Source: a virus. From it: a stretch of DNA of 64,000 nucleotides. The stretch covers positions 18,145 through 82,144 of IMG/VR virus record IMGVR_UViG_3300008050_005857, one strand, 5' to 3'. Position 1 is the first letter of the stretch. Each line of letters starts with the position of its first letter. Below, in pieces: positions 10,151 through 62,777 of this stretch. The notes beneath the pieces are model-generated. The model searched no databases. It was given only the letters and a program-made list of their open reading frames with translations, and was not told where the DNA came from. Both the position numbers and the translations under genes were made by a program.

Positions 10151-10162
10151 CATATATATTAA
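10151..10162 (+). promoter_or_regulatory. Late-type promoter box TATATATT
   Basis: The intergenic stretch holds an A/T-rich run and TATATATT at 10153-10160, with ATG of the next gene only four bases later. The same box precedes other transcription units in this window. If it is a T4-late-like -10 element, the message of the next gene would be leaderless or nearly so, which fits the absence of a Shine-Dalgarno sequence. Confidence 0.45.
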
Positions 10163-24190: not shown

Positions 24191-25092
24191 GAGTCAATAG
24201 CGAATTTGGAAAATTAAAATCGGTATTATTACATGTCCCAACACGAGAAGAATTTGCATTTAATTCTGCAGAAGACATGATGTTTTTAGAAGAACCAAAT
24301 TATGATAAAGTTTTATATGAAATAAATGCATACATTGAATTATTGGAATCTTTAGATATTACGGTTTATACGGATATAGGATTTCCTCTTAGAACATCAA
24401 TGGCTGTTGAATTTCCAAATCTTATTTACATGAAAGATTTAGCAATAGCAACTCCTGATCAGTTGATTCTTTGTCGTCCACATCACGATGTACGTAAAGG
24501 TGAAGAAGTATATTTACACAAGCTATTAAAACACATTGGCGTAACGGATGATCAGATCAATTTTATTCCAGTAGGGGATCATGAAGGAGCAGATATTGTA
24601 TGGTTAAATCCAAAAAAGATCATGATAAATGAAGGTTATCGTACAACTTTTAAAGCATCCGAAGAAATATCTAGATTTTTTAATTCACGATATGATATTG
24701 ATTCTCATAAAATTGAAGGTAATAAACATCACCAAATACCTCAACATATTCAAGGATCAAAGCATATTTTTTCATTGACCAATGCTGCATACAGAAAAGA
24801 ACTCGAGCCGTGGGACATGGATTTTGAAAATACATACGCGTTTAGTGAAACAGAAGAAATTGTAAAAGGCTTTTCATTAAACGTTATTACAGTGAATGAA
24901 AATGAAATTATAATGCCATCTGAATGTCCTGAAACTAAGGCAGCTTATGAATCTTTAGGTGTTAAATGTCACGAGTCTCCAATGAGCGAAATAACAAAGG
25001 GCGCTGGTGGATTTGCATGCATGACACTATTTTTAAATAGAGAAAAAGTATGGATGGGATTACTTCCGGAAGGATTACCAAATGAATATTAA
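24181..25092 (+). CDS. Amidinotransferase/pentein-family enzyme
   Basis: A 303-residue pentein of the glycine amidinotransferase/DDAH/arginine deiminase type. VNSEFGKLKSVLLHVPTREE is the usual opening. HEGADIVWLNPKKIMI near residue 134 holds the substrate-binding acidic residues, and GGFACMTL near residue 280 holds the nucleophilic Cys. Such enzymes move an amidino group from arginine or hydrolyse guanidino groups. It overlaps the sulfotransferase-like gene and the second ThyA-fold gene. Making a guanidinylated modification is an attractive inference but is not shown. Confidence 0.75.
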   Translation: MDIGVNSEFGKLKSVLLHVPTREEFAFNSAEDMMFLEEPNYDKVLYEINAYIELLESLDITVYTDIGFPLRTSMAVEFPNLIYMKDLAIATPDQLILCRPHHDVRKGEEVYLHKLLKHIGVTDDQINFIPVGDHEGADIVWLNPKKIMINEGYRTTFKASEEISRFFNSRYDIDSHKIEGNKHHQIPQHIQGSKHIFSLTNAAYRKELEPWDMDFENTYAFSETEEIVKGFSLNVITVNENEIIMPSECPETKAAYESLGVKCHESPMSEITKGAGGFACMTLFLNREKVWMGLLPEGLPNEY

Positions 25093-25840
25093 AACTTGTA
25101 ATACTGCAGGTGAAGCATTTGAATGGATGAGAGACGCCGTTAAGACTCGCGGATATGTCCATGAATCCCGTGGTAAACGCACTAAAGAATTAATGCATGT
25201 AATGGTTGAAATAAAACGTCCTGACATGTCAGTTGTATGTATACCAAGTTTCAAGTGGGATTTTATTTCACAGGAAGTTAGAGATATAATGACTGAAAAT
25301 GATGTTAGTGCAATTCATTCAAAAGAAATGTTGGAATATACCATGGGCAGCCCTGATGCAAAATTCTTCTTCGGTGCTGAAGTCCGCGAAGCATTATCAC
25401 CATGGTCTCTTGATGCAATATTTGAGTTGTTTAAACAAGATAAAGATACTCGAAAAGCCGTATTAGATTTAGGAAATCGTAAACCTGAAGAGCATATTCC
25501 CTGTCTTTCGTTCGCCCACTTAGTAATTAGAGATAACAAGTTACATTGCACCCTTGAAACACGCAGTACAGATTTAGCATTTGGGTATCCATACGATACA
25601 GTTTTATTTACAGTTATGCAAAGATATATGTTACACAGATTGCAAGAAATATATCCTGAGTTAAAATTAGGTTCATTCTTTTATAAAAGTATTTGCATGC
25701 ATTATTACTTAAAGAATAATGATACACCACTAAAAGATTTAAACTTAACAACTAATGATCCAGAGGATTGCTGGTTACCTCCAGATACTCAAGGCTGGTT
25801 TGAAGATTGCATCATATCAGGAGATCCAAATCATGCCTAG
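25082..25840 (+). CDS. Second ThyA-fold enzyme with dCMP-type specificity residue
   Basis: A 252-residue divergent thymidylate synthase-fold protein. Cys141 in EEHIPCLSF is in the catalytic position. RSTDLAFGYPYD spans 161-172. Eight residues after Asp164 there is Asp172 where thymidylate synthase has Asn, the same change as in the gene at 21.6 kb. MHYYLKN takes the place of the GDxHxYxNH motif. The N-terminal 110 residues are shorter than usual. It may act on dCMP, or on modified dCMP or DNA, as the second step of one pathway. It overlaps genes on both sides. Confidence 0.7.
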   Translation: MNIKTCNTAGEAFEWMRDAVKTRGYVHESRGKRTKELMHVMVEIKRPDMSVVCIPSFKWDFISQEVRDIMTENDVSAIHSKEMLEYTMGSPDAKFFFGAEVREALSPWSLDAIFELFKQDKDTRKAVLDLGNRKPEEHIPCLSFAHLVIRDNKLHCTLETRSTDLAFGYPYDTVLFTVMQRYMLHRLQEIYPELKLGSFFYKSICMHYYLKNNDTPLKDLNLTTNDPEDCWLPPDTQGWFEDCIISGDPNHA

Positions 25841-27300: not shown

Positions 27301-27311
27301 CAAAATAAAAC

Positions 27312-27367
27312 AAAAAAGTACTTTGGTTTTACGTAAAAAAGTATTAGGTTATACCAACAATAATAAA
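27312..27367 (+). promoter_or_regulatory. Diverged copy of the early promoter repeat before DNA polymerase
   Basis: CTTTGG at 27321 and TTAGGTTA at 27344 are separated by exactly the same distance as in the near-identical repeats at 54-62 kb, and ACC then ACAATAATAAA follows in place of ACCGTACAATAAA. The left part has drifted. It lies just before the polymerase start, so this is probably the same promoter class outside the early cluster. Confidence 0.5.
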
Positions 27368-27375
27368 GGATTTAT

Positions 27376-29826
27376 ATGTCATTTGAACTAACCCGCATTG
27401 CTTCTAAGTTCAATAAAGGTCAATTTAAAATGTTTTTAACAGGCTATGAAGATGGAAAGCGTGTAACAAAGTATGATATGTTTCAAGATTATTTCTATTA
27501 TGATACTGAACATATTTCTGACGTTGAAAGCAAGCCCGGGTTTACAGTTGATAAGACTTCTGAAATAAAAACCATTGACGATAAAAAGGGCTATAAAGTA
27601 AATTATACATCAATCGTCAATAAGAAAAGATTTATCAGAAAACATACGGACAGATCATATATTGCCGATGTATCACCTGAATTCAAATATATTCAAGATA
27701 AGAATCTGAAATGGTCACATAAACGTAACATATGTTTTTTTGATATTGAAACGTGGTATGATCCTGATAATCCAAGAGCAAACAAACCTGATAATGCCCA
27801 AATGCCTATTACATCAATGGTTGCATATGCAGTTGATACTGAAAAATATTTTGTATTTTCTTGGCATCCTGAACATACTAAAAATGATGAAAAACCTAGA
27901 CGTGAAGATAAAGATAATGTTGCATTCATCTATCTAAAAGACGAAGAAACCATGATCGAAGCGTTTCTTTATTATGTTAAGAAAAACAATGTAGATGTTC
28001 TCACAGGATGGTATTCATCGCAATTTGATTTACCATACATTATAAACCGGTGCAAAAACTTAGATATTGATTATTCCAAGCTTTCTCCAGTTGGTTACAT
28101 TAAAATGTATAAAAAACAAGATTATTTTAAATTAACAGTCAATGGTCTTGACTGTATTGATCTTATGGATTCTATGCAAGACCTTGGATTTAAACTCACA
28201 AATTGGAAACTTGATACAGCTGCGAAAGAAGTTGTTGGAACAGTAGAAAAAATGACAGAGTTTACATGGAAAGACTGGCTTGAAAATTATGAAGGGTTTT
28301 TAGAATATAATATACAAGACGTAAAAATACTTCTTGAAATAGAAAAGAAATTAAATATTTTTTCTTTGTATTGTATTATTCAAGAGATTGCGGGTCTTGA
28401 AGCTTTTAAGTTTATATTCTTTAAATCGATGCTAGTTGACTATTACATTCTTAAAGCCTTTAACGGCAAAATGCTTTTTCCAACACAACAAGTAAAACAG
28501 CGACAATCATTTGCAGGCGCCATTGTATTAGATCCACAAGAGCCGGGAGGCCATGAAGATGTTGCAACATTAGATTATACATCTCTATATCCAACAAGCA
28601 TAATGGCATTTAATATTAGCCCTGAAACTTTTATTTGCAGTGAAGAAAATGCCATAGAAGAAACCGGAATGACAATCGATCAAATCGCCAGCGAGTTAAA
28701 AACTAGGAAGATTGATTTCATAGATACTGGTCATGATGCAACCTTATTCGGCAAACGCTATCTGTTTTTTGGTCACTCTCACAGACTGGGTATTATGCCC
28801 TTTCTGTTGAAAACGTTATTCTTAATGCGTAAAGATATTAATGCAAAGTTAGACGCTGGTGAAATACCTGAAAAAGATAGAGTTGCAAACGAACGCAAAC
28901 AGCGAGCTATTAAATTAATTCTTAATTCCGCATATGGGGCTATGGGTTTTAATTATTTTAGAATGTATAAGCCTGAATGCGCTGATGCAACAACGTATTT
29001 CGGTAGACAAGCGTTATTGTACGCTGTTGATACAATGAAAAATGAGTATGACATGCCAGTTTTATATGGCGATACTGATTCAACTTTTGTAAAACAAAAT
29101 GGCAAATCTATTAATCAAATTGTAGATTTACTTGAAGGTGATTTTACAGATAAACTTAGAAATGTATTTGTTCCAAAGTACTCAACAACAGTTAATGACG
29201 ATTACTTTTATCTTGATCTTAAATTTGAAAAAGATCTTGAACATGTATATTTTGGTAATGCTAAAAAACGTTATTATGGTATTGAACGAACCTCCGGTAA
29301 GCGGTACATCCGTGGCCTAAACATTATTCGTAAAGACGCTCCAACATATTGTAAAAAGATACTCGACACCCTTGCAGAAAAAGCTGTAAGAGGCAAGTTA
29401 ACAGCGGATGATCTTATACGTATACGTAAAGAGATTGCTCAAGTACCGTTAAGTCAAATTGGTATTGTCAAAAGTTTTAGTAAACGATTTGAAGAGTATA
29501 TTAAAAGTAAACCTCAACATCTTACAGCGTGCCAATGGGCTAATGAAATATTTGACATCAGCATCAATAATATGGACAAGCCATTACTGTTTTATGCTAC
29601 AGCGCTACAAGAAGATCACTTAAAACCTAAAAAACGTCATCGTGCAATATGTGTACTTGACGATCAATTAGATCTTTTAAAGAAAGAAAATGAATTTTTC
29701 AAACTCGATTATGATACATTTTTTAAAAAGCAAATTTACGAACAACTAGAAGAATTTAGTCAAATACCCTATATTGAAACTATTTTAAAGGAATATGATG
29801 AAACGGCGAAGACTATTAACTTTTAA
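27376..29826 (+). CDS. Family-B replicative DNA polymerase (gp43-like)
   Basis: An 816-residue B-family polymerase with 3'-5' exonuclease. Exo I is FFDIET with Asp123 and Glu125. Exo II is near WYSSQFDLPY, and Exo III near YNIQDVKIL. Polymerase motif A is LDYTSLYPTS (Asp400), motif B is KLILNSAYGAMG, and motif C is YGDTDS (Asp566, Asp568). It is slightly shorter than T4 gp43 (about 900 residues). AAAGGA precedes the ATG. It is the likely main replicase; the family-A-like ORF at 10.2 kb is separate. Confidence 0.95.
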   Translation: MSFELTRIASKFNKGQFKMFLTGYEDGKRVTKYDMFQDYFYYDTEHISDVESKPGFTVDKTSEIKTIDDKKGYKVNYTSIVNKKRFIRKHTDRSYIADVSPEFKYIQDKNLKWSHKRNICFFDIETWYDPDNPRANKPDNAQMPITSMVAYAVDTEKYFVFSWHPEHTKNDEKPRREDKDNVAFIYLKDEETMIEAFLYYVKKNNVDVLTGWYSSQFDLPYIINRCKNLDIDYSKLSPVGYIKMYKKQDYFKLTVNGLDCIDLMDSMQDLGFKLTNWKLDTAAKEVVGTVEKMTEFTWKDWLENYEGFLEYNIQDVKILLEIEKKLNIFSLYCIIQEIAGLEAFKFIFFKSMLVDYYILKAFNGKMLFPTQQVKQRQSFAGAIVLDPQEPGGHEDVATLDYTSLYPTSIMAFNISPETFICSEENAIEETGMTIDQIASELKTRKIDFIDTGHDATLFGKRYLFFGHSHRLGIMPFLLKTLFLMRKDINAKLDAGEIPEKDRVANERKQRAIKLILNSAYGAMGFNYFRMYKPECADATTYFGRQALLYAVDTMKNEYDMPVLYGDTDSTFVKQNGKSINQIVDLLEGDFTDKLRNVFVPKYSTTVNDDYFYLDLKFEKDLEHVYFGNAKKRYYGIERTSGKRYIRGLNIIRKDAPTYCKKILDTLAEKAVRGKLTADDLIRIRKEIAQVPLSQIGIVKSFSKRFEEYIKSKPQHLTACQWANEIFDISINNMDKPLLFYATALQEDHLKPKKRHRAICVLDDQLDLLKKENEFFKLDYDTFFKKQIYEQLEEFSQIPYIETILKEYDETAKTINF

Positions 29827-46996: not shown

Positions 46997-47134
46997 ATGA
47001 GAAGTATTTCTCAACGCGAGGAAGCTATCTTACGACAACAGTTATTTCTATTATATGGTAGGAATCCAGGAAAACCGTATATCTGGACACGAGTTATAAC
47101 GCGCTTCATGAAATGTTTAAACATTCGTAAATGA
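46997..47134 (+). CDS. Small basic 45-residue protein
   Basis: ATG 46997 follows AAAGGAAAG, 12 bases after the nuclease gene. The product is Arg-rich (R-S-I-S-Q-R-E-E-A-I-L-R-Q-Q) with a short aromatic core and ends R-K. No family is recognised. The gap of 185 bases otherwise empty of genes, together with the ribosome site, supports it. Its stop falls inside the degenerate promoter repeat. Confidence 0.5.
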   Translation: MRSISQREEAILRQQLFLLYGRNPGKPYIWTRVITRFMKCLNIRK

Positions 47135-47168
47135 CTTTGGGGTCTGAAAGATCTTTGTTAGGTTAGTG
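47126..47168 (+). promoter_or_regulatory. Degenerate copy of the early promoter repeat
   Basis: CGTAAATG then CTTTGGG at 47126-47141, and TTAGGTTAG at 47158-47166, keep the same 32-base register as the repeats at 54-62 kb. The -10-like ACCGTACAAT is absent and the next gene's ATG comes at once. It looks like a decayed or partly rebuilt copy. Confidence 0.5.
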
Positions 47169-47169
47169 T

Positions 47170-47418
47170 ATGCCGACTACATATTATATTATGCTACCAG
47201 AAGACGGACAAAATGAATTGCTTTATGAGTCAAATACTTTAGGCGATGAAAGCTTTGGAACATTTTACGCAAATAGTGGAATGAATTCATTATATGAAAT
47301 CGTAAACAACCATCCCGAGTTATTACCACATACACAAATCGTAGACCAAACCGGTGTAAAATTCACAATTACAGAATTCATGGATAAATTAAATGAATGG
47401 AAATTAAGGTTCAACTGA
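47170..47418 (+). CDS. Small phage protein, function unknown
   Basis: An 82-residue acidic protein (TYYIMLPEDGQNELLYES, later FTITEFMDKLNEWKL). No known domain is seen. It starts right after the TTAGGTTAG element of the degenerate promoter repeat and has no clear Shine-Dalgarno. The next gene follows 11 bases later with a good ribosome site. Confidence 0.6.
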   Translation: MPTTYYIMLPEDGQNELLYESNTLGDESFGTFYANSGMNSLYEIVNNHPELLPHTQIVDQTGVKFTITEFMDKLNEWKLRFN

Positions 47419-50802: not shown

Positions 50803-51249
50803 ATGAAGAATATATTAAAAAATACGAATAAAGGTTTCACTTTGATTGAACTGGTAATGGTTACAATCATATTAGGAATCTTAGCTGCAGTTGCAATACC
50901 GCGTTATACACAAACAGTTGATAATGCTGAAGCTGCAACCGAAAAAGCATTCGTTGATATGATATGGGCTGGATTAGAAGAAGAGGCTAGTCAAAGAAGG
51001 TTAGAATCAGGACTTGAATCTTGGCCGTATAATCCGCTATCAGTAATTGGTAGAACTCGGAACATTGTATTGACCATGTATGACGGTGTACCTGATGAAG
51101 ATGGTGAATGGCAGTTTAGTATAGATGCAGTTGGAGATCCAGCAGTATTCCATCATAGAAGAAATGATGAAATTTACTACTTTTCTTACGATTCAACCGC
51201 ATTTGAACTAGACGAAATACCTACTTTATATACACAAGACTCAGAGTAA
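50803..51249 (+). CDS. Type IV pilin/pseudopilin-like protein
   Basis: A 148-residue protein with a textbook prepilin start: N-K-Gly11, then FTLIELVMVTIILGILAAVA with Phe at +1 and Glu16 at +5, then I-P-R-Y. The remainder is small and acidic, like a GspG/GspH-type minor pseudopilin. It lies 19 bases after the first prepilin-like gene. Such a protein could join host type IV pili or type II secretion pseudopili, or block them. I do not know a described phage system with this pair. Confidence 0.85.
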   Translation: MKNILKNTNKGFTLIELVMVTIILGILAAVAIPRYTQTVDNAEAATEKAFVDMIWAGLEEEASQRRLESGLESWPYNPLSVIGRTRNIVLTMYDGVPDEDGEWQFSIDAVGDPAVFHHRRNDEIYYFSYDSTAFELDEIPTLYTQDSE

Positions 51250-53562: not shown

Positions 53563-54213
53563 ATGGATGTAGGAGTTGTTGCTGGACATCTAGCGTTCGG
53601 ATTAATAGCGTTTTCGTTTTTAGTAAAAGATATTTTATGGTTAAGACTTATGTCTGTACTTGCAAGTCTATTCTCTGTATTTTACAATTATGTTATACCG
53701 CCAGATCCTATGTGGATTCCGATAGGTTGGAATTTCGTATTCGTTGCAGTTAATTTATATCATATCGCAATAATATTCTATGAAAAACGCCCAGTCAAAA
53801 TGGACGATAAAGATACAGAGTTATACGAAACACTATTTAAAGACATGTCTCCTGTTGAATATTTAAAGATTAGTAAAGTTGCCCAATGGAACACATATAA
53901 ATCAGGGCATCATATCACAAAAGAAGGATCATTAGTACATAACCTAATATTGATTTACAACGGAACAGTTGACGTTGCAGTTAAAGGTAGAAAGGTTGCA
54001 GAATTACGAGATGGTCAATTTGTTGGTGAAATGTCTTTCCTTACAGAGAAACCCGCTACAGCAACTTGTGTAGTAAAACATCCATGCGAGTGTTTAGTAT
54101 GGAAACAAAAAGAATTTAAAGAGTTATTGAAACGGAATCCATCGCTTTATTTTACACTACAATCATTATTAAGTGCTCAAGTATCGAGCAATCTTGTCGG
54201 AAAAAACGAATAA
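53563..54213 (+). CDS. Membrane protein with cyclic-nucleotide-binding-like domain
   Basis: A 216-residue protein. Residues 1-75 hold about three membrane segments. Residues 95-205 form a cNMP-binding (CAP/Popeye-like) beta-barrel with YKSGHHITKEGS, LILIYNGTVDVAV and LRDGQFVGEMSFL, then P-A-T-A-T. The phosphate-binding Arg usual in CAP-type domains is missing, as in Popeye-type domains, so cyclic-nucleotide binding is uncertain. It may sense or disturb a host second messenger at the membrane. The neighbours encode other membrane proteins. Confidence 0.75.
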   Translation: MDVGVVAGHLAFGLIAFSFLVKDILWLRLMSVLASLFSVFYNYVIPPDPMWIPIGWNFVFVAVNLYHIAIIFYEKRPVKMDDKDTELYETLFKDMSPVEYLKISKVAQWNTYKSGHHITKEGSLVHNLILIYNGTVDVAVKGRKVAELRDGQFVGEMSFLTEKPATATCVVKHPCECLVWKQKEFKELLKRNPSLYFTLQSLLSAQVSSNLVGKNE

Positions 54214-54218
54214 TATAT

Positions 54219-54271
54219 CGTAAATGTCTTTGGGTTGTCGTTTTTTATGCTTAGGTTAGACCGTACAATAA
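54219..54271 (+). promoter_or_regulatory. Early promoter repeat, copy 1
   Basis: A 53-bp element of the form CGTAAATGTCTTTGGG ... TTGTCG ... TTAGGTTAGACCG, ending in TACAATAAA. It is identical to the copy at 62.3 kb up to the A-run, and close to those at 55.6, 60.0 and 61.7 kb. TACAAT is a good -10 box. TTGTCG lies 23 bases upstream of it, too far for ordinary sigma70, so an activator or phage factor may be needed. Confidence 0.8.
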
Positions 54272-54288
54272 ATAAGGAAAACTATCAA

Positions 54289-54510
54289 ATGGCAAAAAAA
54301 GCAAATCTAAAAGAAGTAAAAAACTTATTAGTCGAAAAAATAAACGACGATAAGAAGTATAAGAACATTACACTTGAAAATTACGAATATCTTCCAGAAA
54401 GTTATAAAGTTGAAATGTTGAGAGAAGTTCGATCTGACAATAAAGGAAACATGGATATTTGGAGAGCGGTAGCTAGGTTGATTCAAAGTTTAAACACTAA
54501 AAAATATTAA
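54289..54510 (+). CDS. 73-residue early-type protein
   Basis: ATG 54289 follows AATAAGGAAAAC, the leader shared with the copy at 61.7 kb. A longer frame starting inside the promoter repeat is rejected. The product is Lys/Glu-rich and helical (LKEVKNLLVEKINDDKKYKN). No family is recognised. It is the first gene of a short operon with the next four. Confidence 0.65.
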   Translation: MAKKANLKEVKNLLVEKINDDKKYKNITLENYEYLPESYKVEMLREVRSDNKGNMDIWRAVARLIQSLNTKKY

Positions 54511-54524
54511 AAAAGAGGTTACAT

Positions 54525-54758
54525 ATGTCATTACAAACAATAACAATTCCAAAAGATGCCCACCCGGCATTACCGAATTCTTTCTCAGTTGATTTCCATT
54601 GGGGAAAGAATGGTTTAAATATTTTATCTTTAACTGACGCACCATTTACAATGAATGAAGTACTTCATGAAAATCACACAACTGGCGCGAAATATTACTT
54701 CAAATATCTCATAGACGATTTTATTCAAGGCGTTTCAGAATTAGGAGAGATATCATAA
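54525..54758 (+). CDS. 77-residue protein, function unknown
   Basis: AGAGG precedes the ATG. The product is small and mixed (IPKDAHPALPNSFSVDFHWG, then YYFKYLIDDFIQGVSEL). No domain is recognised. Its stop overlaps the proposed ATC start of the HAD phosphatase gene (TAATC), and AGGAGAG near its end supplies that gene's ribosome site. Confidence 0.6.
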   Translation: MSLQTITIPKDAHPALPNSFSVDFHWGKNGLNILSLTDAPFTMNEVLHENHTTGAKYYFKYLIDDFIQGVSELGEIS

Positions 54759-55228
54759 TCAAATACGGAACAAACATTAAAAATACTATTATATTTGATC
54801 TTGATGGAACTCTTGCTGACATAGAAATTCGCCGCAAGCATTGCACGAAACCAAATGGTAAACTCGATTGGGATAAATTTTTTGATCCTAAACATATAAA
54901 ATTAGATAAACCGAATCTTCCTGTTATAGCAATGGCTAAAGCATTTTGGGACAAGGGCTATCGTTTAGTAATATTTTCAGGTCGGTCTGCATCAACTCAA
55001 TTTGAAACTGAAAGATGGTTGGATAGTCACGATATAAAATACGATATGTTGAAAATGCGTCCTACACACAAGAAATGGTTTCCAGATGATATATTAAAAA
55101 AAGAAATGCTTGATAGATTTGTTGATAAAAAAAGCGTGTTCTTAGTAGTCGATGATAGACAGAAAGTTGTTGACATGTGGAGAAAAGAAGGCTTAACGTG
55201 TTTTCAGGTCGCAGAAGGTAACTTTTAG
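54758..55228 (+). CDS. HAD-family phosphatase (Pnk 3'-phosphatase-like), non-canonical start
   Basis: A 156-residue HAD phosphatase. IIFDLDGTLADIEIRR is the catalytic motif near residue 11, IFSGRSAS is motif II, and VFLVVDDRQKVVDMW is motif III. The set resembles the 3'-phosphatase half of T4 polynucleotide kinase. The catalytic motif lies upstream of the first ATG in frame. No ATG, GTG or TTG precedes it before the ribosome site AGGAGAG (54743-54749), so translation probably starts at ATC 54758 (or ATA 54755). It could repair 3' ends of nucleic acid or act on nucleotides. Confidence 0.8.
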   Translation: MKYGTNIKNTIIFDLDGTLADIEIRRKHCTKPNGKLDWDKFFDPKHIKLDKPNLPVIAMAKAFWDKGYRLVIFSGRSASTQFETERWLDSHDIKYDMLKMRPTHKKWFPDDILKKEMLDRFVDKKSVFLVVDDRQKVVDMWRKEGLTCFQVAEGNF

Positions 55229-55416
55229 TGAGATTATTCAAATGGCTAATAAAGAAACGGTATAAACATAGCCCAGTTTGCAATTGTGGTTGGACTATGA
55301 AACCATTTGAAAGATATACTGATAGATATCAATGGAAATGTATTTGGAAAAAATGTGGTTGGGAAGCATTCGACAATGGTGATAGTAAATTGCATTGGTG
55401 GTGGAGGTATAAATGA
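55228..55416 (+). CDS. 62-residue zinc-ribbon protein
   Basis: Starts at GTG 55228, overlapping the HAD stop by one base. The N-terminus is basic (RLFKWLIKKRYKHS). C-N-C-G-W and later C-I-W-K-K-C-G-W form a probable zinc ribbon, and the C-terminus is Trp-rich. It overlaps the next gene by four bases. Probably a small nucleic-acid-binding protein. Confidence 0.6.
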   Translation: MRLFKWLIKKRYKHSPVCNCGWTMKPFERYTDRYQWKCIWKKCGWEAFDNGDSKLHWWWRYK

Positions 55417-55643
55417 TGACCGTAGTTGAAAGGTTGCTGCCAATTATCATAGACTTAAAGAGACACAGTCCTATGTTAGCAGAACAGAGACTACAGAATG
55501 TCTGTGGAGAAATTATATATGGGTTAAAATGTGCAAAACGAATCCACGCAGGAAATTACAAAAAAGAGGAGTATCCCAAATTGAATCAGTCAATAAAACG
55601 TTCCTTTGAATTAATAGGAAATTATTTTCATTTATTTTCGTAA
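55413..55643 (+). CDS. 76-residue helical protein
   Basis: Starts in an ATGA overlap with the zinc-ribbon gene. The product is a helical protein (VVERLLPIIIDLKRHSPML, then LNQSIKRSFELIGNY) with no recognised domain. Its stop lies inside the first bases of the next promoter repeat. Confidence 0.6.
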   Translation: MMTVVERLLPIIIDLKRHSPMLAEQRLQNVCGEIIYGLKCAKRIHAGNYKKEEYPKLNQSIKRSFELIGNYFHLFS

Positions 55644-55691
55644 AGGTCTTTGGCTTGTCGTTTTTTTATGTTAGGTTAGACCGTACAATAA
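55639..55691 (+). promoter_or_regulatory. Early promoter repeat, copy 2
   Basis: Same element as at 54.2 kb in the AAAGGTCTTTGGC version, which matches the copy at 61.7 kb. The spacer between TTGTCG and TACAAT is again 23 bases, although the T-run is one longer and the following block one shorter. It drives the VWA/HEXXH gene. Confidence 0.8.
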
Positions 55692-55716
55692 AACACGCAA
55701 ATAAAGGTTATACTAA

Positions 55717-57765
55717 ATGAAAAATTTTAACACAAACTCAAACTATTGGATCGGTAATCTAACTGGCTCATTAGATGATGCATGGTGGAGAGAAGACGAT
55801 GCAGATAAACCAAAAGGTAAAGATTTAGTCGCTCTCGCTGGCTATAAAAAAGCTATTTCAAATTTTGTTAATATCGTTACTACTCGAAGCGACATTCCAG
55901 TCGTATATAATTCAAAAGGTGGATCTTACACGAACGGAAAAAAAGTTGTTCTTTCTGGCAGAATGAACGATAAGAATTTTGATTCTTCAGTTGGACTTGC
56001 TCTTCACGAAGGCAGTCATATTGTTCATACTGATTTTGATCTTCTTAAAGATATTAGAAATATTGTAAGAGAAGAACTTAAGTTAAGAAATTACACTTGG
56101 GAAGAAAGACAAGAATTAGCTGAACATACTCGTAAAGTTAAAGATCTTCTTAATTACGTAGAAGATAGAAGAATTGATTATATCATTTTCAAATCTGCGC
56201 CAGGTTATAAGAATTATTACCACGCAATGTATAAAAAATATTTTGAATTTAAAGTTATCAATAAAGCCCTTAAAACTGGTCAATATACTGATGATACTTC
56301 TTACGATTCATACGAATTTCGCATTATTAATTTTCTTAATCAATTTACAGATTTAGATGCATTACCTGGCTTAAGAGAAATTTATAAGACAATTAATTTC
56401 AAAAATATTTCAAGATTAAATAACACCCGCGAAGCGCTTGATGTAGCACTTGAAATGTATAAAATCATTCTAGCGAATCTTAAACCTGCACCTAAAGTGC
56501 AGCAACCAGATGATCAGCAAACAGACGATGATCAACAAGAATCTGCTCAAGATGGTGATACCTCAGATAGCGAATCTTCAACTTCCAATAACGCTTCAAG
56601 TTCTGAAGATCCTAATTCTGATTCACCATCTGAGCAGCTCACCGAAGCTTCAGATGAAACAGCAGATGAAACAGCAGATGAAACATCCGCGAATAAACCA
56701 GTTGAATTGTCTGATAAAGAGAAAAAGTCTTTAGCAAAAGCAATCGAACAACAAAAAGCTTTTACTTCAGGCGCAGTTAAAAAATCAAATCTTACGAAAA
56801 AAGACAATCAAACTCTTAAAGCTGTAGAAGATTCTCAAGCTTATACTCAGTCAGTTGGTACGAAAAGCGGAAAAACGGATTGTATAGTTGTTCCAAGATT
56901 AACTAAATCGATGATACCTAAAAGCTGGGGAGACGGAGCATATAACTTTTTAAGATTCAGATCAGACGACTATCTCGATAGAGCTATTCAAGAAGGAATC
57001 GTATTAGGTAAAAGACTTGGTAAAAAGCTTCAAGTTAGAAATGAATCACGTGAAACCAAATGGACTCGTCAAGACTCAGGTCGTATCGATAAAAGATTAA
57101 TTGCAGAGCTTGGATTTGATAACAGAAATGTTTTTTCTCAAGTATCAATCGACAAATATAACGATGCATTCATTCACATTTCAGTTGACGCATCAGGTTC
57201 AATGTCAGGAGACAATTGGAATAACGCGATGAAATCAGCTGCAGCAATTGCACAAGCTTCTAGCATGTGTGGTAACATCCACGTTCAAGTTTCTATCAGA
57301 ACAACGCAATCTACCGGTAAAGATCATATGCCAATTATCGCTATAATTTACGATTCAAACGTTAATAAGATTATCCACATAAAACAAATTTGGAAATTCT
57401 TAACAGCCGGCGGTACTACTCCAGAAGGACTTTGCTTCGAAGCAATTGAAAAACAGATCTTAAAAGACGCTAACGGAAGAGATTCTTATTTCTTAAATCT
57501 TTCAGACGGTCAACCTTACTTTTCAACTAAGAGTTTTTGGTACTCTGGAGATTCTGCATATTCTCATACAAGATCTAAAGTTGATAATTTTAAGAAAGCT
57601 GGTATTAAAGTACTATCATTTTTTATTACAAGCGGTTACTACCAACCTAGAGATGGTGTTCTATCGGCGTTTAAAACGATGTACGGAAAAGACGCCGTAA
57701 CTATCGATCCAACGTCTTTAGTAAGTTTAGCTAAAGTTTTAAATGCTAAATTTTTAGAAGCTTAA
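55717..57765 (+). CDS. VWA-domain protein with HEXXH motif (CobT-like)
   Basis: A 682-residue protein. Residues 93-105 contain HEGSH, a zinc-type HEXXH motif, followed by LLNYVEDRRIDYIIF, as in the putative metallopeptidase half of VWA-like proteins. An acidic Ser/Asp/Glu linker with a short D-E-T-A repeat lies near 260-340. The C-terminal VWA domain has the MIDAS motif DASGSMSGD near 491 and a T-T-P-E-G-L loop. With the AAA+ gene at 60.1 kb it forms a CobS/CobT- or MoxR/VWA-like pair, expected to be an ATP-driven metal-chelating or remodelling complex. Actual cobalamin synthesis is unlikely. Confidence 0.8.
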   Translation: MKNFNTNSNYWIGNLTGSLDDAWWREDDADKPKGKDLVALAGYKKAISNFVNIVTTRSDIPVVYNSKGGSYTNGKKVVLSGRMNDKNFDSSVGLALHEGSHIVHTDFDLLKDIRNIVREELKLRNYTWEERQELAEHTRKVKDLLNYVEDRRIDYIIFKSAPGYKNYYHAMYKKYFEFKVINKALKTGQYTDDTSYDSYEFRIINFLNQFTDLDALPGLREIYKTINFKNISRLNNTREALDVALEMYKIILANLKPAPKVQQPDDQQTDDDQQESAQDGDTSDSESSTSNNASSSEDPNSDSPSEQLTEASDETADETADETSANKPVELSDKEKKSLAKAIEQQKAFTSGAVKKSNLTKKDNQTLKAVEDSQAYTQSVGTKSGKTDCIVVPRLTKSMIPKSWGDGAYNFLRFRSDDYLDRAIQEGIVLGKRLGKKLQVRNESRETKWTRQDSGRIDKRLIAELGFDNRNVFSQVSIDKYNDAFIHISVDASGSMSGDNWNNAMKSAAAIAQASSMCGNIHVQVSIRTTQSTGKDHMPIIAIIYDSNVNKIIHIKQIWKFLTAGGTTPEGLCFEAIEKQILKDANGRDSYFLNLSDGQPYFSTKSFWYSGDSAYSHTRSKVDNFKKAGIKVLSFFITSGYYQPRDGVLSAFKTMYGKDAVTIDPTSLVSLAKVLNAKFLEA

Positions 57766-57851
57766 TATTTATCTATGAAAAAACAAAATGTATTATTACA
57801 AAAGGTTCAAATGCTATAAATTAATTAATAAATAAACATAGGTACTGAAGC

Positions 57852-58133
57852 ATGAACGCCAAAGACAAGCAAGATTTAGAACTAGTACATTATAGATTAG
57901 ATGAGTTAGATAAGAAATTTGACACAATGAAGCATGACATGTCTATGGCGAATGGAAAAACGGATGCATCACTAAGGTTTATCAAAGAAAATTTATTCAA
58001 TCCAAATGAAGGGTTATGGGCCGAGACAAAACAAAATTCATTATTTAGAGTTAACTCACAAAAATGGAGAGGAATTGTCGGAGCTGGATTTGTTGCTCTA
58101 ATAGTCGATAAAATTTGGAGTATGTTTACATAA
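57852..58133 (+). CDS. Coiled-coil protein with C-terminal membrane anchor
   Basis: A 93-residue protein. Residues 5-45 form a charged helix (LELVHYRLDELDKKFDTM). The C-terminus has one hydrophobic segment (GIVGAGFVALIVDKIW). The layout resembles small XhlA-like or spanin/holin-accessory proteins, but function is not shown. An 86-base AT-rich gap precedes it with no clear ribosome site. Confidence 0.6.
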   Translation: MNAKDKQDLELVHYRLDELDKKFDTMKHDMSMANGKTDASLRFIKENLFNPNEGLWAETKQNSLFRVNSQKWRGIVGAGFVALIVDKIWSMFT

Positions 58134-58142
58134 GGAGTTACA

Positions 58143-58382
58143 ATGGCTATAAAAATAGTTGCAAATAGAGTCCCACCTGGAGATAGATGGGTACTCACCA
58201 ATGAAGTTACATCGGACCAATCAGTTATATCATCACTCACTGAAACTTTAAACACGATTTATCAACAGACAGAGGATCGTATCTTTACAGTTGATGCAGT
58301 TAAAGGTGAGATTCAAGTAGATACTGAAATACAAGAAGGACCACGCAAATGGGACCTATACGGAGAATACGGCGATGAGTAA
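58143..58382 (+). CDS. 79-residue protein, function unknown
   Basis: AAGGAG precedes the ATG. The product has VANRVPPGDRWVLTNEVTSD and an acidic C-terminus. No domain is recognised. It overlaps the next gene by eight bases, and the run 57.85-59.15 kb looks like one operon of very small genes. Confidence 0.6.
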   Translation: MAIKIVANRVPPGDRWVLTNEVTSDQSVISSLTETLNTIYQQTEDRIFTVDAVKGEIQVDTEIQEGPRKWDLYGEYGDE

Positions 58383-58650
58383 AATAATGAACGCTAGCGA
58401 ATTAATTGAACACAATAGACATTTGTCTGCAGAGATAGATTATTGGGTTGCTCAACGATCTGAAGCATTAGCGATATTAGACTCGCTGTTTAATCGAACT
58501 AGTGTTATTGGAGAAACTGGTGCAATACAAGATGAAATTCATAAATGGACGTCAACCTTAAGTACTGCAGTACAAAATCTCGAAAATCTTAAAACGTATT
58601 TCGATCGAGGCGGAGAAGTAAAGCCAGTTAAATCACTATTACAAGGATAA
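58375..58650 (+). CDS. 91-residue helical protein
   Basis: Starts inside the previous gene. The product is a two-helix, probably coiled-coil protein (ASELIEHNRHLSAEIDYWV, then STAVQNLENLKTYF). No family is recognised. The next gene starts four bases after its stop. Confidence 0.6.
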   Translation: MSKIMNASELIEHNRHLSAEIDYWVAQRSEALAILDSLFNRTSVIGETGAIQDEIHKWTSTLSTAVQNLENLKTYFDRGGEVKPVKSLLQG

Positions 58651-58653
58651 GTT

Positions 58654-58887
58654 ATGAATCAACAACAATCACAAGTACAAATAGACCCATCACAAGGGGA
58701 GCTCGTAAAATGTGAGTCTCTCAATTGTAAAGGAGCCGGCAAAGGTCATTGGGATCAAAAGTTAACAGTCAAGCGGTTATCCGCTATTACCAGTCCGACA
58801 GGAAAAGAGATGTACATTCAAGTACCTATCATGACGTGCACGGATTGCGGCGACGAGTTTCCAGCACCGTCAAGTTTGGACGCGTAA
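58654..58887 (+). CDS. 77-residue zinc-ribbon protein
   Basis: A Gln-rich start is followed by C-E-S-L-N-C and, about 40 residues later, C-T-D-C-G-D. This would form a zinc ribbon with four Cys. It ends in TAATG with the following short ORF. Composition rises in GC towards its end, which marks the start of the GC-richer segment. Confidence 0.6.
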   Translation: MNQQQSQVQIDPSQGELVKCESLNCKGAGKGHWDQKLTVKRLSAITSPTGKEMYIQVPIMTCTDCGDEFPAPSSLDA

Positions 58888-58985
58888 TGAACGGCGCGCC
58901 ACCGACAACTAACGTTCGACCGACCACCGGCAGGACCTCCACTAAAAAACTGGGTACCCACACTCACCCGTCATGCAATACTTAA
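58887..58985 (+). CDS. 32-residue Pro/Thr-rich ORF
   Basis: ATG 58887 lies in a TAATG overlap with the zinc-ribbon gene. The product is rich in Pro, Thr, Arg and Gly (NGAPPTTNVRPTTGRTS) and would be unstructured. Coupling and lack of another gene support it, but the length is short and the local sequence is unusually GC-rich. Confidence 0.4.
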   Translation: MNGAPPTTNVRPTTGRTSTKKLGTHTHPSCNT

Positions 58986-59155
58986 TAGCTTTCGCTAAGC
59001 TCATTGGCCAGGCACTTGCATTCTGGGTTATCATGTGGCTCTTAATCCATTTAGTAATAGCTTCACTCTATATTTGGGGTGCCATTCTATTATTAGTTTC
59101 CATAGTAGTACTAATAGAAGACACAAGGAAGCTCGGAAATACACACAGCAATTAA
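58973..59155 (+). CDS. 60-residue two-helix membrane protein
   Basis: A strongly hydrophobic protein with two membrane segments (LIGQALAFWVIMWLLIHLVI and LYIWGAILLLVSIVVL) and a short polar end. It overlaps the Pro/Thr-rich ORF by 13 bases. No family is recognised. Holin-like behaviour is possible. Confidence 0.6.
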   Translation: MQYLIAFAKLIGQALAFWVIMWLLIHLVIASLYIWGAILLLVSIVVLIEDTRKLGNTHSN

Positions 59156-59475
59156 TTCGGTCCATCCCCGATACCTATCGCTTGGATGGCTCAGTTGAGT
59201 GCGGTAGGTAAATAACTTCGTGTGCCCCTTGGTGCCCGTGTGACTCCGTATAATATAGCCCCTAAGTTGATCCCGATTCGAAGCACCCCAATCTACCATA
59301 TCTGTAAATTAACATACATTAGTGACTGTGATATAGGGCTATTGGATTCGTTAATGCCCCCTTCATGTGCTATACCGGCAAGATCCCCAGTGATATAGAT
59401 TCCTGTCCCTACCGGTATTGTGATGCTAACTTATTAAGGTTGTGTGATACTTATAGCTAAACAAGGAGTAGAATA
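59156..59475. other. GC-richer gap with short direct repeats
   Basis: About 320 bases without a convincing gene. It contains GTGATATAG twice (59328-59336, 59390-59398) and TACCGG twice (59373-59378, 59410-59415) in the same order, spaced like operator sites, upstream of the HTH gene. Composition differs from the AT-rich genome. A regulatory region is the likely role. Confidence 0.4.
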
Positions 59476-59541
59476 GTGATCGTAAGTAACTCATGCAAAT
59501 ACCGTGCCAGCGGCAGTCCGGCCAGATTCGGGGTGTCATAA
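59476..59541 (+). CDS. 21-residue leader peptide coupled to the HTH gene
   Basis: AAGGAG (59463-59468) is well placed for GTG 59476. The frame runs 21 codons (I-V-S-N-S-C-K-Y-R ...) and its TAA overlaps the HTH gene's ATG (TAATG). The HTH gene has no ribosome site of its own, so this short ORF may control it by translational coupling. Confidence 0.45.
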   Translation: MIVSNSCKYRASGSPARFGVS

Positions 59542-59906
59542 TGTCACAAGGTTTGCCGCGTTATATGACAAAACATGAAGTCGCCAAAGCACTTCACGTG
59601 GTCGTTCGTACCATAGATCGGTGGCGTAGGCAGGGAATACTGCCGTATGTTAAGATGGGAGCTCAATCTAATGCTCAAGTACTATTTGAAGAAAAGGATA
59701 TCCAGGATTTTATGGATAGAAGGAAGCATAATACGTTCTTGAGAGGGCATGGCGATGGCTGGCAATATAATAGTGGATTTCTACCCGGTCAAGATAAGGT
59801 TGTAGTAACAGGATCGAAGGCTGAAAGAGAGGTAGTTGATAATACCGAAGAGTTTGAGCATACAGATGACAGAGACTACTCGGACGCTCCTCCATTGATA
59901 TACTAG
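59541..59906 (+). CDS. HTH_17/MerR-like DNA-binding protein
   Basis: A 121-residue regulator or excisionase-like protein. YMTKHEVAKALHVVVRTIDR, then WRRQGILPYVKMG, is a winged-helix HTH of the MerR/Xis type, with a C-terminal acidic tail (TEEFEHTDDRDYSD). ATG 59541 is chosen because it couples to the leader peptide; the upstream in-frame extension lacks a ribosome site. It may regulate the nearby genes through the repeats in the gap before it. Confidence 0.8.
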   Translation: MSQGLPRYMTKHEVAKALHVVVRTIDRWRRQGILPYVKMGAQSNAQVLFEEKDIQDFMDRRKHNTFLRGHGDGWQYNSGFLPGQDKVVVTGSKAEREVVDNTEEFEHTDDRDYSDAPPLIY

Positions 59907-59977
59907 GCGGCTGCCAGCTGGTACCTCCGGCACTGAGGGAGCAATCCTAATTTAGTCCCATTATTACAGAATAGTTG

Positions 59978-60030
59978 CGTAAATGTCTTTGGGTTGTCGT
60001 TATTATGTGTTAGGTTAGACCGTACAATAA
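59978..60030 (+). promoter_or_regulatory. Early promoter repeat, copy 3
   Basis: The same element, with TTATT in place of the T-run and ATGTG before TTAGGTTAGACCG. Spacing from TTGTCG to TACAAT is still 23 bases. It drives the AAA+ gene, partner of the VWA gene behind copy 2. Confidence 0.8.
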
Positions 60031-60052
60031 AACAAATAGATAAAGGTTACAC

Positions 60053-61186
60053 ATGAAAACAATAGTAGTTATTAAGAGAGATCGGATGAATAAGCTTTTT
60101 GCATCCGATGTTATAACAGGCAAAAAGGTTACCGTACCTAAAGGCGCACTCAGACGTGGTCATAACGGTACTGGTTATTTAGAGTCTACCCCTAAGGGAT
60201 GGAAGCAAGTTGAATATGAACAACCAGCACTAGAAGCTGCCCCAGATAAACCGGCTCCGGGTAGCCCCGCTGCTAAGCACGCTGAAGAGCTGGAGATGAT
60301 CCATTCTAGCTATTCGATTAAACCCAAGTCACTTATGATGAGTGAAATTAAGTGGAAGTATCTTATCCGCTCAGCTGTTAGAGGTAAGAATATCATGATG
60401 ACTGGCCCAGCAGGTTGTGGTAAAACCATGGCTGCTAAATCACTAGTTAATAGCCTTGACCGTCCAGACTTTTATTTTAACTTAGGAGCAACCCAGGATC
60501 CTCGAGCATCACTAATAGGTAACACCCATTACAATAAAGAGAAAGGTACATACTTCTCAGAGTCCTTATTCGTTAAGGCTATCAAGACTGAGAATGCCGT
60601 TATACTCTTAGATGAGCTATCCAGAGCCCATCCAGAAGCTTGGAACATCCTAATGACCGTGTTAGACGAAGGACAAAGATACCTTCGGTTGGATGAAGCT
60701 TCTGGCCAGACAACTGTTAAGGTTGCACCTGGCGTCACTTTCGTAGCGACAGCTAATATAGGTAATGAGTATACCGCTACCAGAGTGATGGACAGAGCGC
60801 TTATAGACCGCTTTACCCAAATTGAAATGGACGTGCTTAACAAAGACGAGGAAGGTACATTATTATCATCACTATACCCCCACGTTGATAACGCCACTAG
60901 AGAGAACATAGCTGAATTAGCGTGGATCACTCGACAAGAATCATCCCAAGAAGAAGGGAAGCTCTCCACACACATATCCACCAGAACCAGCGTAGAGCTG
61001 ACCGGCTTAGTATACGACGGCTTCACACTAGACGAAGCAGCTCAAGTATCCGTGCTACCCAAGTTCGACTCAGCTGGTGGCTTAGAGAGTGAGAGAACAT
61101 TCGTCAAACAGCTTCTCCAGAAGTATACCTCAGATGGATCATCCGATGAGCTCTTTACAGATGTAGAAGATGAAGATAACAACTAA
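60053..61186 (+). CDS. AAA+ ATPase (CobS/MoxR-like)
   Basis: A 377-residue AAA+ ATPase. After a 90-residue N-terminal region with RMNKLFASDVITGKKV, the ATPase core has Walker A MTGPAGCGKTMAA near 115-127, Walker B AVILLDELSRAHPEAW, sensor 1 TFVATANIGNEYT and the Arg finger DRALIDRF. MoxR/CobS ATPases act with VWA partners; the phage's VWA/HEXXH gene lies 2.3 kb upstream behind the same promoter. Codon use and GC content are higher than in most of the window, suggesting recent transfer. The C-terminus is acidic. Confidence 0.88.
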   Translation: MKTIVVIKRDRMNKLFASDVITGKKVTVPKGALRRGHNGTGYLESTPKGWKQVEYEQPALEAAPDKPAPGSPAAKHAEELEMIHSSYSIKPKSLMMSEIKWKYLIRSAVRGKNIMMTGPAGCGKTMAAKSLVNSLDRPDFYFNLGATQDPRASLIGNTHYNKEKGTYFSESLFVKAIKTENAVILLDELSRAHPEAWNILMTVLDEGQRYLRLDEASGQTTVKVAPGVTFVATANIGNEYTATRVMDRALIDRFTQIEMDVLNKDEEGTLLSSLYPHVDNATRENIAELAWITRQESSQEEGKLSTHISTRTSVELTGLVYDGFTLDEAAQVSVLPKFDSAGGLESERTFVKQLLQKYTSDGSSDELFTDVEDEDNN

Positions 61187-61218
61187 TAGATATATAGTGT
61201 AACCTCACTATTGTACAC

Positions 61219-61265
61219 AAGCTGCCCAGGTTAATAGGTACCGAGATGCCTCACCTGGGCAGCTT
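61219..61265 (+). terminator. 13-bp inverted repeat after the AAA+ gene
   Basis: AAGCTGCCCAGGT (61219-61231) and ACCTGGGCAGCTT (61253-61265) are perfect complements around a 21-base loop. It lies 33 bases past the AAA+ stop and could end that transcript, although a T-run is lacking. It is directly followed by the structured GC-rich element. Confidence 0.65.
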
Positions 61266-61319
61266 CGTGTCGAGTGCCCACCAGCTTCCCAACCTACCAG
61301 CTTCCCAGTGCAGGCCAGT

Positions 61320-61415
61320 GCAGGCCCGGGCAGGCATGCCCCCAGTGACCGCTTTGCGGGTAAGTTTGCCTGGAAACCGCAAAGCGTTTGCGTTTCGGCT
61401 CAGCGCCGGGCCTGC
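61320..61415. other. Nested inverted repeats, candidate structured element
   Basis: Outer arms GCAGGCCCGG (61320-61329) and CCGGGCCTGC (61406-61415) enclose GGGC...GCCC (61328-61343) and a second perfect pair, CGCTTTGCGG (61350-61359) with CCGCAAAGCG (61377-61386). Together they can fold as a three-way junction. The DNA is far richer in GC than the genome. It could be a non-coding RNA, an origin or a packaging/recombination site. No ORF explains it. Confidence 0.6.
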
Positions 61416-61744
61416 TAGGGTATCAGGACTGGCCCAGAGCTAGTAGGACAGTATATATGCTTACTCATAATGAGTGGGATCACGGGATAGTTCTTGGTCC
61501 TCTTTCTTGGTCATGGCCAACATTATATTACGTAGTCCGTTAATATCAGAAAGTGGTATTAACTGTACTTGGAATATGACTCCGGTTTGTAATACTCAAA
61601 TTAGTATTAATTCTTATAGTGCAATATCTAAATTTTATATTATTCTGATAGTGTAATATCTAAAAAGTATAATAAAACAACCATTAGGGATTAATCCATA
61701 TATGGACATCCCATATTCAATTTACAGTATACTAGAAATAGTTT
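61416..61744. other. Gene-free gap with palindrome and direct repeat
   Basis: Composition falls back to AT-rich. ACTCAT-A-ATGAGT (61463-61475) is a short palindrome. A 17-base direct repeat, ATAGTGCAATATCTAAA at 61616-61632 and ATAGTGTAATATCTAAA at 61648-61664, follows. The short ORFs here have no ribosome sites. The stretch ends at promoter repeat copy 4. Confidence 0.4.
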
Positions 61745-61798
61745 CGTAAAGGTCTTTGGCTTGTCGTTTTTTTATGTTAGGTTAGACCGTACAATAAA
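61745..61798 (+). promoter_or_regulatory. Early promoter repeat, copy 4
   Basis: Matches copy 2 through AAAGGTCTTTGGC, the T-run and TTAGGTTAGACCGTACAATAAA, and shares with copy 1 the downstream AATAAGGAAAAC leader. It drives the KOW-like gene. Confidence 0.8.
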
Positions 61799-61815
61799 TA
61801 AGGAAAACAAACAAC

Positions 61816-62079
61816 ATGACTAAAACACTATTAAAACAACTTGACCGCTTAGACTATAACGGACTTATGGCTCTTAACCGTAACGTAATTGACCGGATGA
61901 GAGATATAGCCGCTTCTGATAGATTAAGATTCGCCGTAGGTGATAAAGTGACTATTAAACATAATGGCACCCTCGAAGGTAAGGTAATTAAGATCATGCG
62001 TAAGAACGTTAAAGTGCAAGTCGGTAGTAGGATTTATAGAGTTACCCCGCTGCTTCTCTCCAAAGGATGGAATATATAA
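61816..62079 (+). CDS. 87-residue protein with KOW/SH3-like domain
   Basis: A helical N-terminal half (LLKQLDRLDYNGLMALNRNV) is followed by VGDKVTIKHNGTLEGKVIKI and a further beta strand, the shape of a KOW/SH3-like barrel that binds RNA or proteins. AAGGAAAAC lies before the ATG. It ends in TAATG with the next gene. Such small early proteins often bind host polymerase or ribosomes; this is inference. Confidence 0.65.
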   Translation: MTKTLLKQLDRLDYNGLMALNRNVIDRMRDIAASDRLRFAVGDKVTIKHNGTLEGKVIKIMRKNVKVQVGSRIYRVTPLLLSKGWNI

Positions 62080-62312
62080 TGAAAAATGATGAAATATTAG
62101 AGATGCTGGAATCAATAGAAAATGATCTAGATGATGCTAACAATTCTTTACCAGACTACCCTGGCACCAGTGATTCACGAAGTTATATTGACGGCGCCAG
62201 ATGTAGTCTTTACTATTTAAAAGATGAGATAGAGAAATCGATTATAGATGAACCAGATGTACCTCTTGATGAGGTTATGAATACTTCACCAAGCTTAGCT
62301 AAAGGATTATAA
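62079..62312 (+). CDS. 77-residue acidic protein
   Basis: ATG 62079 lies in a TAATG overlap with the previous gene; a longer frame four codons upstream is not preferred. The product is acidic and helical (EILEMLESIENDLDDANNSL), with a C-terminus rich in Asp and Pro. No family is recognised. Confidence 0.6.
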   Translation: MKNDEILEMLESIENDLDDANNSLPDYPGTSDSRSYIDGARCSLYYLKDEIEKSIIDEPDVPLDEVMNTSPSLAKGL

Positions 62313-62322
62313 CGTTTTTATT

Positions 62323-62375
62323 CGTAAATGTCTTTGGGTTGTCGTTTTTTATGCTTAGGTTAGACCGTACAATAA
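62323..62375 (+). promoter_or_regulatory. Early promoter repeat, copy 5
   Basis: Identical to copy 1 from CGTAAATG through TACAATAAA. It begins 11 bases after the acidic-protein stop and drives the next small operon. Confidence 0.8.
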
Positions 62376-62387
62376 AAGAGGTTATAA

Positions 62388-62777
62388 ATGACTAAACAAA
62401 TACAACAAGATAAATTATCAACATGCTGTGCAGCACCAATCACTTATTGTGATATATGTGCTAACTGCTTAGAACACGCAGATGTTATGGACATCTCAGC
62501 GGATGACTATAGAAATGAGGATCCTAGGTATTATCAAATAATGGAACATTCAAAAGACCAGTTCGGCAATAACGTCGTTAAACCCGTCAGAATGGAATTT
62601 GTATCTACTGAAATAGATTTAGACAGAGAGATACCAGAACCAGAAGTTGACGAAGACGATTTTTGGAACACTTACTGCGATGAACATCCAGATTTTAATG
62701 CTGCGATGAATGGACATCCAGATTACGTTGATTACACTGGATTCGAATCTTATTTAGAAAAACACTTAATAGCTTAA
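62388..62777 (+). CDS. 129-residue acidic protein with Cys cluster
   Basis: AGAGG lies before the ATG. The N-terminus has C-C-A-A-P-I-T-Y-C-D-I-C-A-N-C, a likely zinc-binding cluster. The rest is strongly acidic (EIPEPEVDEDDFWNTYCDE). The acidic surface resembles DNA-mimic or polymerase-binding early proteins, but this is only a similarity in charge. Confidence 0.65.
   Translation: MTKQIQQDKLSTCCAAPITYCDICANCLEHADVMDISADDYRNEDPRYYQIMEHSKDQFGNNVVKPVRMEFVSTEIDLDREIPEPEVDEDDFWNTYCDEHPDFNAAMNGHPDYVDYTGFESYLEKHLIA

Follow-up and report, generated by a model that had tools for sequence, protein, structure and literature searches.

In the excerpts of PMC1524935, early promoters of phage T4 carry GTTTAC at -36 to -31, with A-rich DNA further upstream (-40 to -44) and with an A at -11 and a T at -7 conserved, and the excerpt of PMC2988021 presents them as strong promoters with UP, -35, TGn, and -10 elements, read by the sigma70 polymerase of the host. 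For middle promoters, the same two excerpts give a MotA box, (a/t)3TGCTTtA, 11-13 bases before TAtaAT. PeSL (promoter early stem-loop) cassettes of T4-like phages are described in the excerpt of PMC4503421. The subject of this study is a repeated promoter-like element in 64,000 nucleotides of viral DNA, termed the window, which represent positions 18145-82144 of the 82,144-base IMG/VR virus record IMGVR_UViG_3300008050_005857; the whole record is designated G000. Five copies had been noticed there, and two of their blocks, TTGTCG and TACAAT, were thought to be contacted by a protein. From the analyses described below, it appears instead, with a probability of about 80%, that the repeats belong to a single family of sigma70-type promoters with CTTTGG as -35 and TAGGTT as -10, and that host polymerase is their likely reader.

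Judging from its genes, the phage is taken to be a distant T4-like marine myovirus. A tail sheath, a tape measure, a UvsX-like recombinase, a single-strand binding protein, a DnaB-like helicase, a ribonucleotide reductase, and a DNA polymerase are encoded, the best GenBank matches of the latter being mostly T4-like cyanophages at ~25% identity. As far as the excerpts of PMC1524935 and PMC2988021 go, the early promoters of T4, RB69, RB49, RB43, Aeh1, and 44RR resemble the elements studied here in the -35/-10 distance of 18, found at all ten loci of this phage, in the conserved A and T of the -10, and in their occurrence in many copies before small genes. A counterpart of the UP-like A-rich DNA of T4 (-40 to -44) may be seen in the A-rich bases upstream of the locus at 27321 and, through selection of the sites, in the relatives of the phage; most copies have no long A-tract but only GTAAA. 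The letters are also different, CTTTGG/TAGGTT at all ten sites versus TTTAC/TATAAT, and seven of the ten copies are nearly identical, spacer included.

A pair of hexamers at constant distance

The five copies start at the predicted positions, 54219, 55639, 59978, 61745, and 62323, and all are located on the coding strand (+) directly upstream of genes. The core TTAGGTTAGACCGTACAATAAA is present without deviation in 5/5 copies at a chance expectation of 0, and allowing up to three mismatches added none. The proposed distance of 23 bases from TTGTCG to TACAAT was likewise exact in all five (TTGTCG-N23-TACAATAAA); a scan with this pattern gave 11 matches, five exact and six with two or three mismatches, 5.34 being expected by chance. 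The suggested length compensation was also recovered, as the spacer forms TTTTTTATGC, TTTTTTTATG, and TTATTATGTG comprise 10 bases each and the shifts cancel.

The set of five was correct but incomplete. IMG/VR scans (TTGTCG..TTAGGTTAGACCG; GTCTTTGG..TTAGGTTAGAC; CTTTGG-N17-TTAGGTTAGA) led to two contigs of one metagenome, while 12 other stretches and L006 looked, by eye and from their surroundings, like chance coding matches. A GenBank phage search with one 61-base copy gave no match. Both contigs, G001 (48,230 bases) and G002 (132,165 bases) of metagenome 3300025133, contain the same genome region. Since G001 extends 42.9 kb beyond the window, ~125 kb could be searched (G000 plus this extension). 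A motif search, which had been proposed as a check for the full genome, revealed ten loci in these ~125 kb: the five copies, the window sites 27321 and 47135 (Table 1), and three on G001 beyond the window. One of the latter is near-identical to the five, another carries TACATAAAT where the five have TACAATAAA, and the third is divergent with TATAAT and no TTGTCG.

The pair common to all ten is CTTTGG/TAGGTT. When CTTTGG-Nx-TAGGTT was searched with x from 5 to 40, ten matches were obtained, two of them (27321 and 47135) being loci discovered via this pattern itself; all have x=18, all are on the coding strand, and the opposite strand has none. Seven of them are located in the window, where 0.00 are expected. 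With one mismatch allowed, no convincing extra site was detected in G000, G001, and G002; the three additional rows are antisense to the genes, and two of them represent one locus in two records. The corresponding search with TTGTCG-Nx-TAYAAT gave six pairs at 23, one at 21, and one at 36. TTGTCG is missing from three of the ten loci, and so is TAYAAT. Both blocks, conserved in all five original copies, are therefore not invariant, and both appear non-essential, because variant G001 copies do without one or the other.

Table 1 Predicted promoter elements and adjoining genes in the window
Feature	Coordinates	Strand	CTTTGG	Spacer	TAGGTT	Remarks
Promoter copy 1	54219..54272	+	54228-54233	18	54252-54257	TACAAT 54264-54269 near predicted start
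ORF downstream of copy 1	54289-54510					73 aa, function not assigned
Promoter copy 2	55639..55692	+	55648-55653	18	55672-55677	upstream of CobT/VWA-like gene(a) 55717-57765
Promoter copy 3	59978..60031	+	59987-59992	18	60011-60016	upstream of CobS-like AAA ATPase gene 60053-61186
Promoter copy 4	61745..61798	+	61754-61759	18	61778-61783	upstream of ORF 61816-62079 (87 aa, function not assigned)
Promoter copy 5	62323..62376	+	62332-62337	18	62356-62361	upstream of ORF 62388-62777 (129 aa, function not assigned)
New same-class promoter	27302..27350	+	27321-27326	18	27345-27350	A-rich stretch; no TTGTCG, TACAAT; two tRNA genes on one side, DNA polymerase gene 27376-29826 on the other
New same-class promoter	47126..47167	+	47135-47140	18	47159-47164	CGTAAATGA; no TTGTCG, TACAAT; directly upstream of ORF 47170-47418

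(a) The gene matches phrog_1576, a family of unknown function; from resemblance, we presume it to be CobT/VWA-like.

According to the original prediction, a spacing too long for ordinary sigma70 suggested that TTGTCG and TACAAT are bound either by a sigma factor dedicated to them or by an activator acting with sigma. Exactly 23 bases in six of the ten loci, the length compensation, and the TATAAT variant of one divergent copy would fit this proposal. However, one or both blocks are missing at four loci, and a search for the 23-spaced pair with one mismatch allowed added none to the six. Moreover, if TACAAT were the -10, the Shine-Dalgarno-like stretch (offset 16) would precede +1 (offset 18) and be truncated in five of the seven TAYAAT copies. 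Contact at TTGTCG and TACAAT by such a factor is therefore considered very unlikely.

With CTTTGG and TAGGTT as -35 and -10, the 23-base gap vanishes and the invariant pair shows normal sigma70 geometry, a spacer of 18, or of 17 if the -35 is taken as TTTGGN. The excessive spacing is thus not borne out, and a dedicated factor is no longer implied. At all ten loci, TAGGTT supplies the -10 letters T-12, A-11, and T-7. In a promoter of this type, whose reader is probably the host RNA polymerase carrying its main sigma factor, sigma would contact both hexamers simultaneously, so that spacer length would be held while spacer letters drift. TTGTCG and the T-run would lie within this spacer, where only length counts, and their compensation would for this reason be a demand of sigma70-type binding. 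TACAATAAA would be placed at about +1 to +9, around the start and just before an intact Shine-Dalgarno sequence; the ribosome-binding site would therefore stay within the transcript. The idea of two-point protein contact is retained in part: since promoter-like, length-constrained elements precede non-structural genes, one protein machine probably touches them at two fixed points, but TTGTCG and TACAAT are not supported as these points. For TACAAT, one may speculate that it acts as a second -10 inducing a pause at the start site. The sequence of the elements, their geometry, their location in front of genes, and the likeness of several copies to elements of relatives are observed; from these, we infer promoter activity, use of the host sigma factor, and early timing.

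A MotA-like arrangement is a second alternative, in which sigma would read TAGGTT (or TACAAT) and a phage or host protein bound to CTTTGG..TTGTCG would replace the -35 contact. CTTTGG is a poor fit to a sigma70 -35, CGTAAA is conserved upstream in most copies, and an HTH_17/MerR-like gene, a possible regulator, is located just upstream of copy 3 (59493-59906). Yet relatives carry TTTAC, the T4 early -35, at the equivalent place, and no MotA box was found 11-13 bases from any -10. TGCTTA occurs in two of the five window copies at 10 bases from TACAAT, and the other three have no TGCTT, in disagreement with the T4 middle promoters as given in the excerpts cited above. On balance, activator dependence is unlikely.

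Other promoter types were also considered. By eye, no GC at -12 was found as in sigma54 promoters, and no suitably spaced AAC/CGT pair as in ECF promoters. Late promoters of T4 have the motif TATAAATA. In the window, it was found once, on the minus strand, compared to 11.1 expected, which is rarer than chance, and no element contains it.

Probable copying of the elements

Recent copying or gene conversion probably accounts for the near-identity of seven of the ten copies. Copy 5 (gene start 62388) and a G001 copy (L008 reverse strand, 9904) share the promoter and the first eight codons, MTKQIQQD, in front of different genes, a sign of recent copying in which genes appear as if swapped behind the promoter. 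Together with near-identity across 55 bases, this might indicate that the element acts mainly as a regulatory RNA after transcription, or as a cassette for recombination, rather than as a promoter, but such a function is highly improbable. Folding was no better than in shuffled sequences (z from -1.17 to +0.50 for five full leaders and +1.10 for a 43-base piece), Rfam detected two tRNAs only, and divergent copies retain both hexamers and their spacing although the spacer differs. The repeated early promoters and the apparent gene swap behind one of them resemble the PeSL cassettes as described in the excerpt of PMC4503421. The stem-loop is different: in a consensus scan, none of the five copies was accompanied by a terminator-like stem-loop. 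Between 53800 and 62500, six terminator-like sites were found versus 5.4 expected, one on the + strand (59064) and none at any copy.

Elements in related phages

Relatives of two of the genes behind the repeats were collected from IMG/VR candidates. The CobS-like gene downstream of copy 3 has 244, with 80 loci among the matches listed, and the CobT-like gene downstream of copy 2 has 44. The 110 bases upstream of cobS were read in eight of the closest records, seven of which contain a promoter-like element with the same geometry as copy 3; for the eighth, L024, this stretch covers the downstream part of the element only. The same kind of element was recognised by eye in L023 and L021 before a gene with an N terminus like that of the gene behind copy 2.

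For comparison, nine IMG/VR records (G003-G011) were used. Some of them are closely related, and 31 short regions were chosen for matching a -35-side pattern, so that the sites are not independent. Among the matches listed for a scan with AAAGCCTTTACTTTNTC, most were unrelated contigs, and only L171, L195, L222, and L234 were used. Sites less than 55 bases from the end of a locus or less than 12 from its start were omitted, as were identical duplicates. The remaining 72 sites comprise 36 with at least six A in the nine bases before the core and 36 with a weaker A-tract, serving as control. TA[AGT][AG]TT at 18 or 19 bases after the TTTAC/TGTAC core was detected at 34 of the 36 A-tract sites versus one of the 36 controls, the anchor being A-tract and -35 side only; the TAC letters of the -35 are thus due to selection, the -10 letters are not. 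The two sites lacking the -10 are L017:9204 and one on the minus strand of L285.

These relatives possess repeat families of their own, consisting of an A-tract, CTTTAC or ATGTAC, 18 or 19 bases, and TAGATT, TATATT, or TAAGTT, often followed by TATAATAAA and AGAGGTTAC before ATG. CTTTAC is the -35 at 14 of the 34 sites and ATGTAC at 20; the spacer is 18 in 13 of the former and 19 in 18 of the latter. Fixed spacing is therefore a family property, since each type keeps its own spacer. Like the repeats studied here, these families precede cobS (7/8 loci shown) and cobT-like genes, keep one spacing per family, and have AGAGGTTAC downstream, but CTTTAC or ATGTAC with TAGATT, TATATT, or TAAGTT stand in place of CTTTGG/TAGGTT.

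Two direct alignments connect both groups. Site 59987 aligns to L021:12972 with CTTT, TTGTCG, ATTATGTG, TAG.TT, and GTACAATAAA in common, and site 27321 aligns to L022:3760 over 55 bases without gaps. In both cases, CTTTGG stands opposite CTTTAC and TAGGTT opposite TAGATT or TAAGTT. In L021:12972, the distance from TTGTCG to TACAAT is 21 while -35 and -10 remain at 18, so that the fixed 23-base distance does not hold in a clear homologue; variation of the spacer in relatives had been named beforehand as grounds for refuting the original proposal. In addition, of the 34 relative sites with a -10, only 11 have TAYAAT behind it, invariably four bases downstream. Both results argue against TTGTCG and TACAAT as the contact points. 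For five of the ten copies (27321, 54228, 59987, 62332, and L008rc 8454), the best score against the relatives exceeded all 100 shuffle rounds.

A number of observations weigh against the assignment to sigma70-type promoters. Three of the six positions of TAGGTT agree with TATAAT, and CTTTGG makes a weak -35; in a scan with the plain sigma70 consensus, which gave 27 sites versus 27.1 in shuffles, none of the five copies was listed. In most copies, TACAATAAA is conserved beyond the need of a start-site region. Sites 27321 and 47135 share both hexamers by construction, because the pattern was used to find them, although their position and the zero chance expectation are not by construction. At 47135, ATG coincides approximately with the predicted +1, which may point to a leaderless gene or to a misassigned start. 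Homology to the relatives' elements was not shown by the shuffle test for this site, whose score was reached in 21 of 100 rounds, and for the L007 copy (36 of 100), and it is narrow for 55648 and L008rc 9848 (one round each) and for 61754 (four). Regarding the polymerase, phrog_234 (T4 gp55 family) and PF04542 gave no match in 7/7 records searched, including G000, G001, and G002, but this is weak evidence against a phage sigma factor because gp55-type factors diverge and remote homologues escape. PF00562, the large RNA polymerase subunit, had no match in G000, G001, and G002, and the search with PF00940 for a single-subunit polymerase was made without a working control.

Proposed promoter code and genomic context

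The two codes are mutually exclusive. In the relatives' 43 loci (267 kb counting both strands, partly overlapping), neither CTTTGG-N17..19-TA[AGT][AG]TT nor a TAC-type -35 followed by TAGGTT was found. Conversely, CTTTAC or ATGTAC followed by TA[AGT][AG]TT at 18 or 19 bases is absent from the 125 kb of the studied phage. Perhaps this indicates a lineage-specific change of promoter code. With the hexamers masked, site 27321 scored 19 with the divergent G001 copy, 17 with a relative's site, and 12 with the near-identical copies, and the divergent G001 copy scored 20 with a near-identical copy and 15 with a relative. Tentatively, CTTTAC/TAGATT might have been replaced by CTTTGG/TAGGTT jointly in all promoters of the class, and in more than one lineage of them, but this remains a rather doubtful proposition. 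It would imply a change in trans, either an altered specificity of the host's sigma factor or a phage protein altering the reading by RNA polymerase. Alternatively, recent copying could have spread one altered promoter.

A candidate for a second promoter class is ATATATATTA, located shortly upstream of genes at window positions 10152, 15206, 33991, and 38538 and at G000 positions before the window. TATATATTA alone occurs five times versus 2.59 expected, a modest excess. Just upstream of copy 1, a protein with a cyclic-nucleotide-binding domain is encoded (53563-54213), a possible regulator. Two mostly non-coding stretches, 58890-59490 and 61190-61740, flank the CobS-like gene; they have ~42% GC (2 kb bins) compared to 33-35% before and no Rfam match. 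Farther away, two thymidylate-synthase-like genes (21586-22455 and 25082-25840) are present with dUTPase and dCMP deaminase close by, possibly a modified-base pathway, and the phage protein encoded at 50803-51249 is pilin-like at its N terminus (phrog_3433, E 1.5e-7).

The ten loci, among them those of the DNA polymerase gene and of the CobS/CobT-like pair, are likely switched together, and the elements look like an ordinary phage promoter type with slightly unusual letters. For a group of large marine phages about which little is known, they provide a promoter code, and they are an example of how a strange-looking repeat spacer becomes ordinary once divergent copies and relatives reveal its invariant part. 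Parallel recoding, if true, would be a natural record of changed RNA polymerase specificity.

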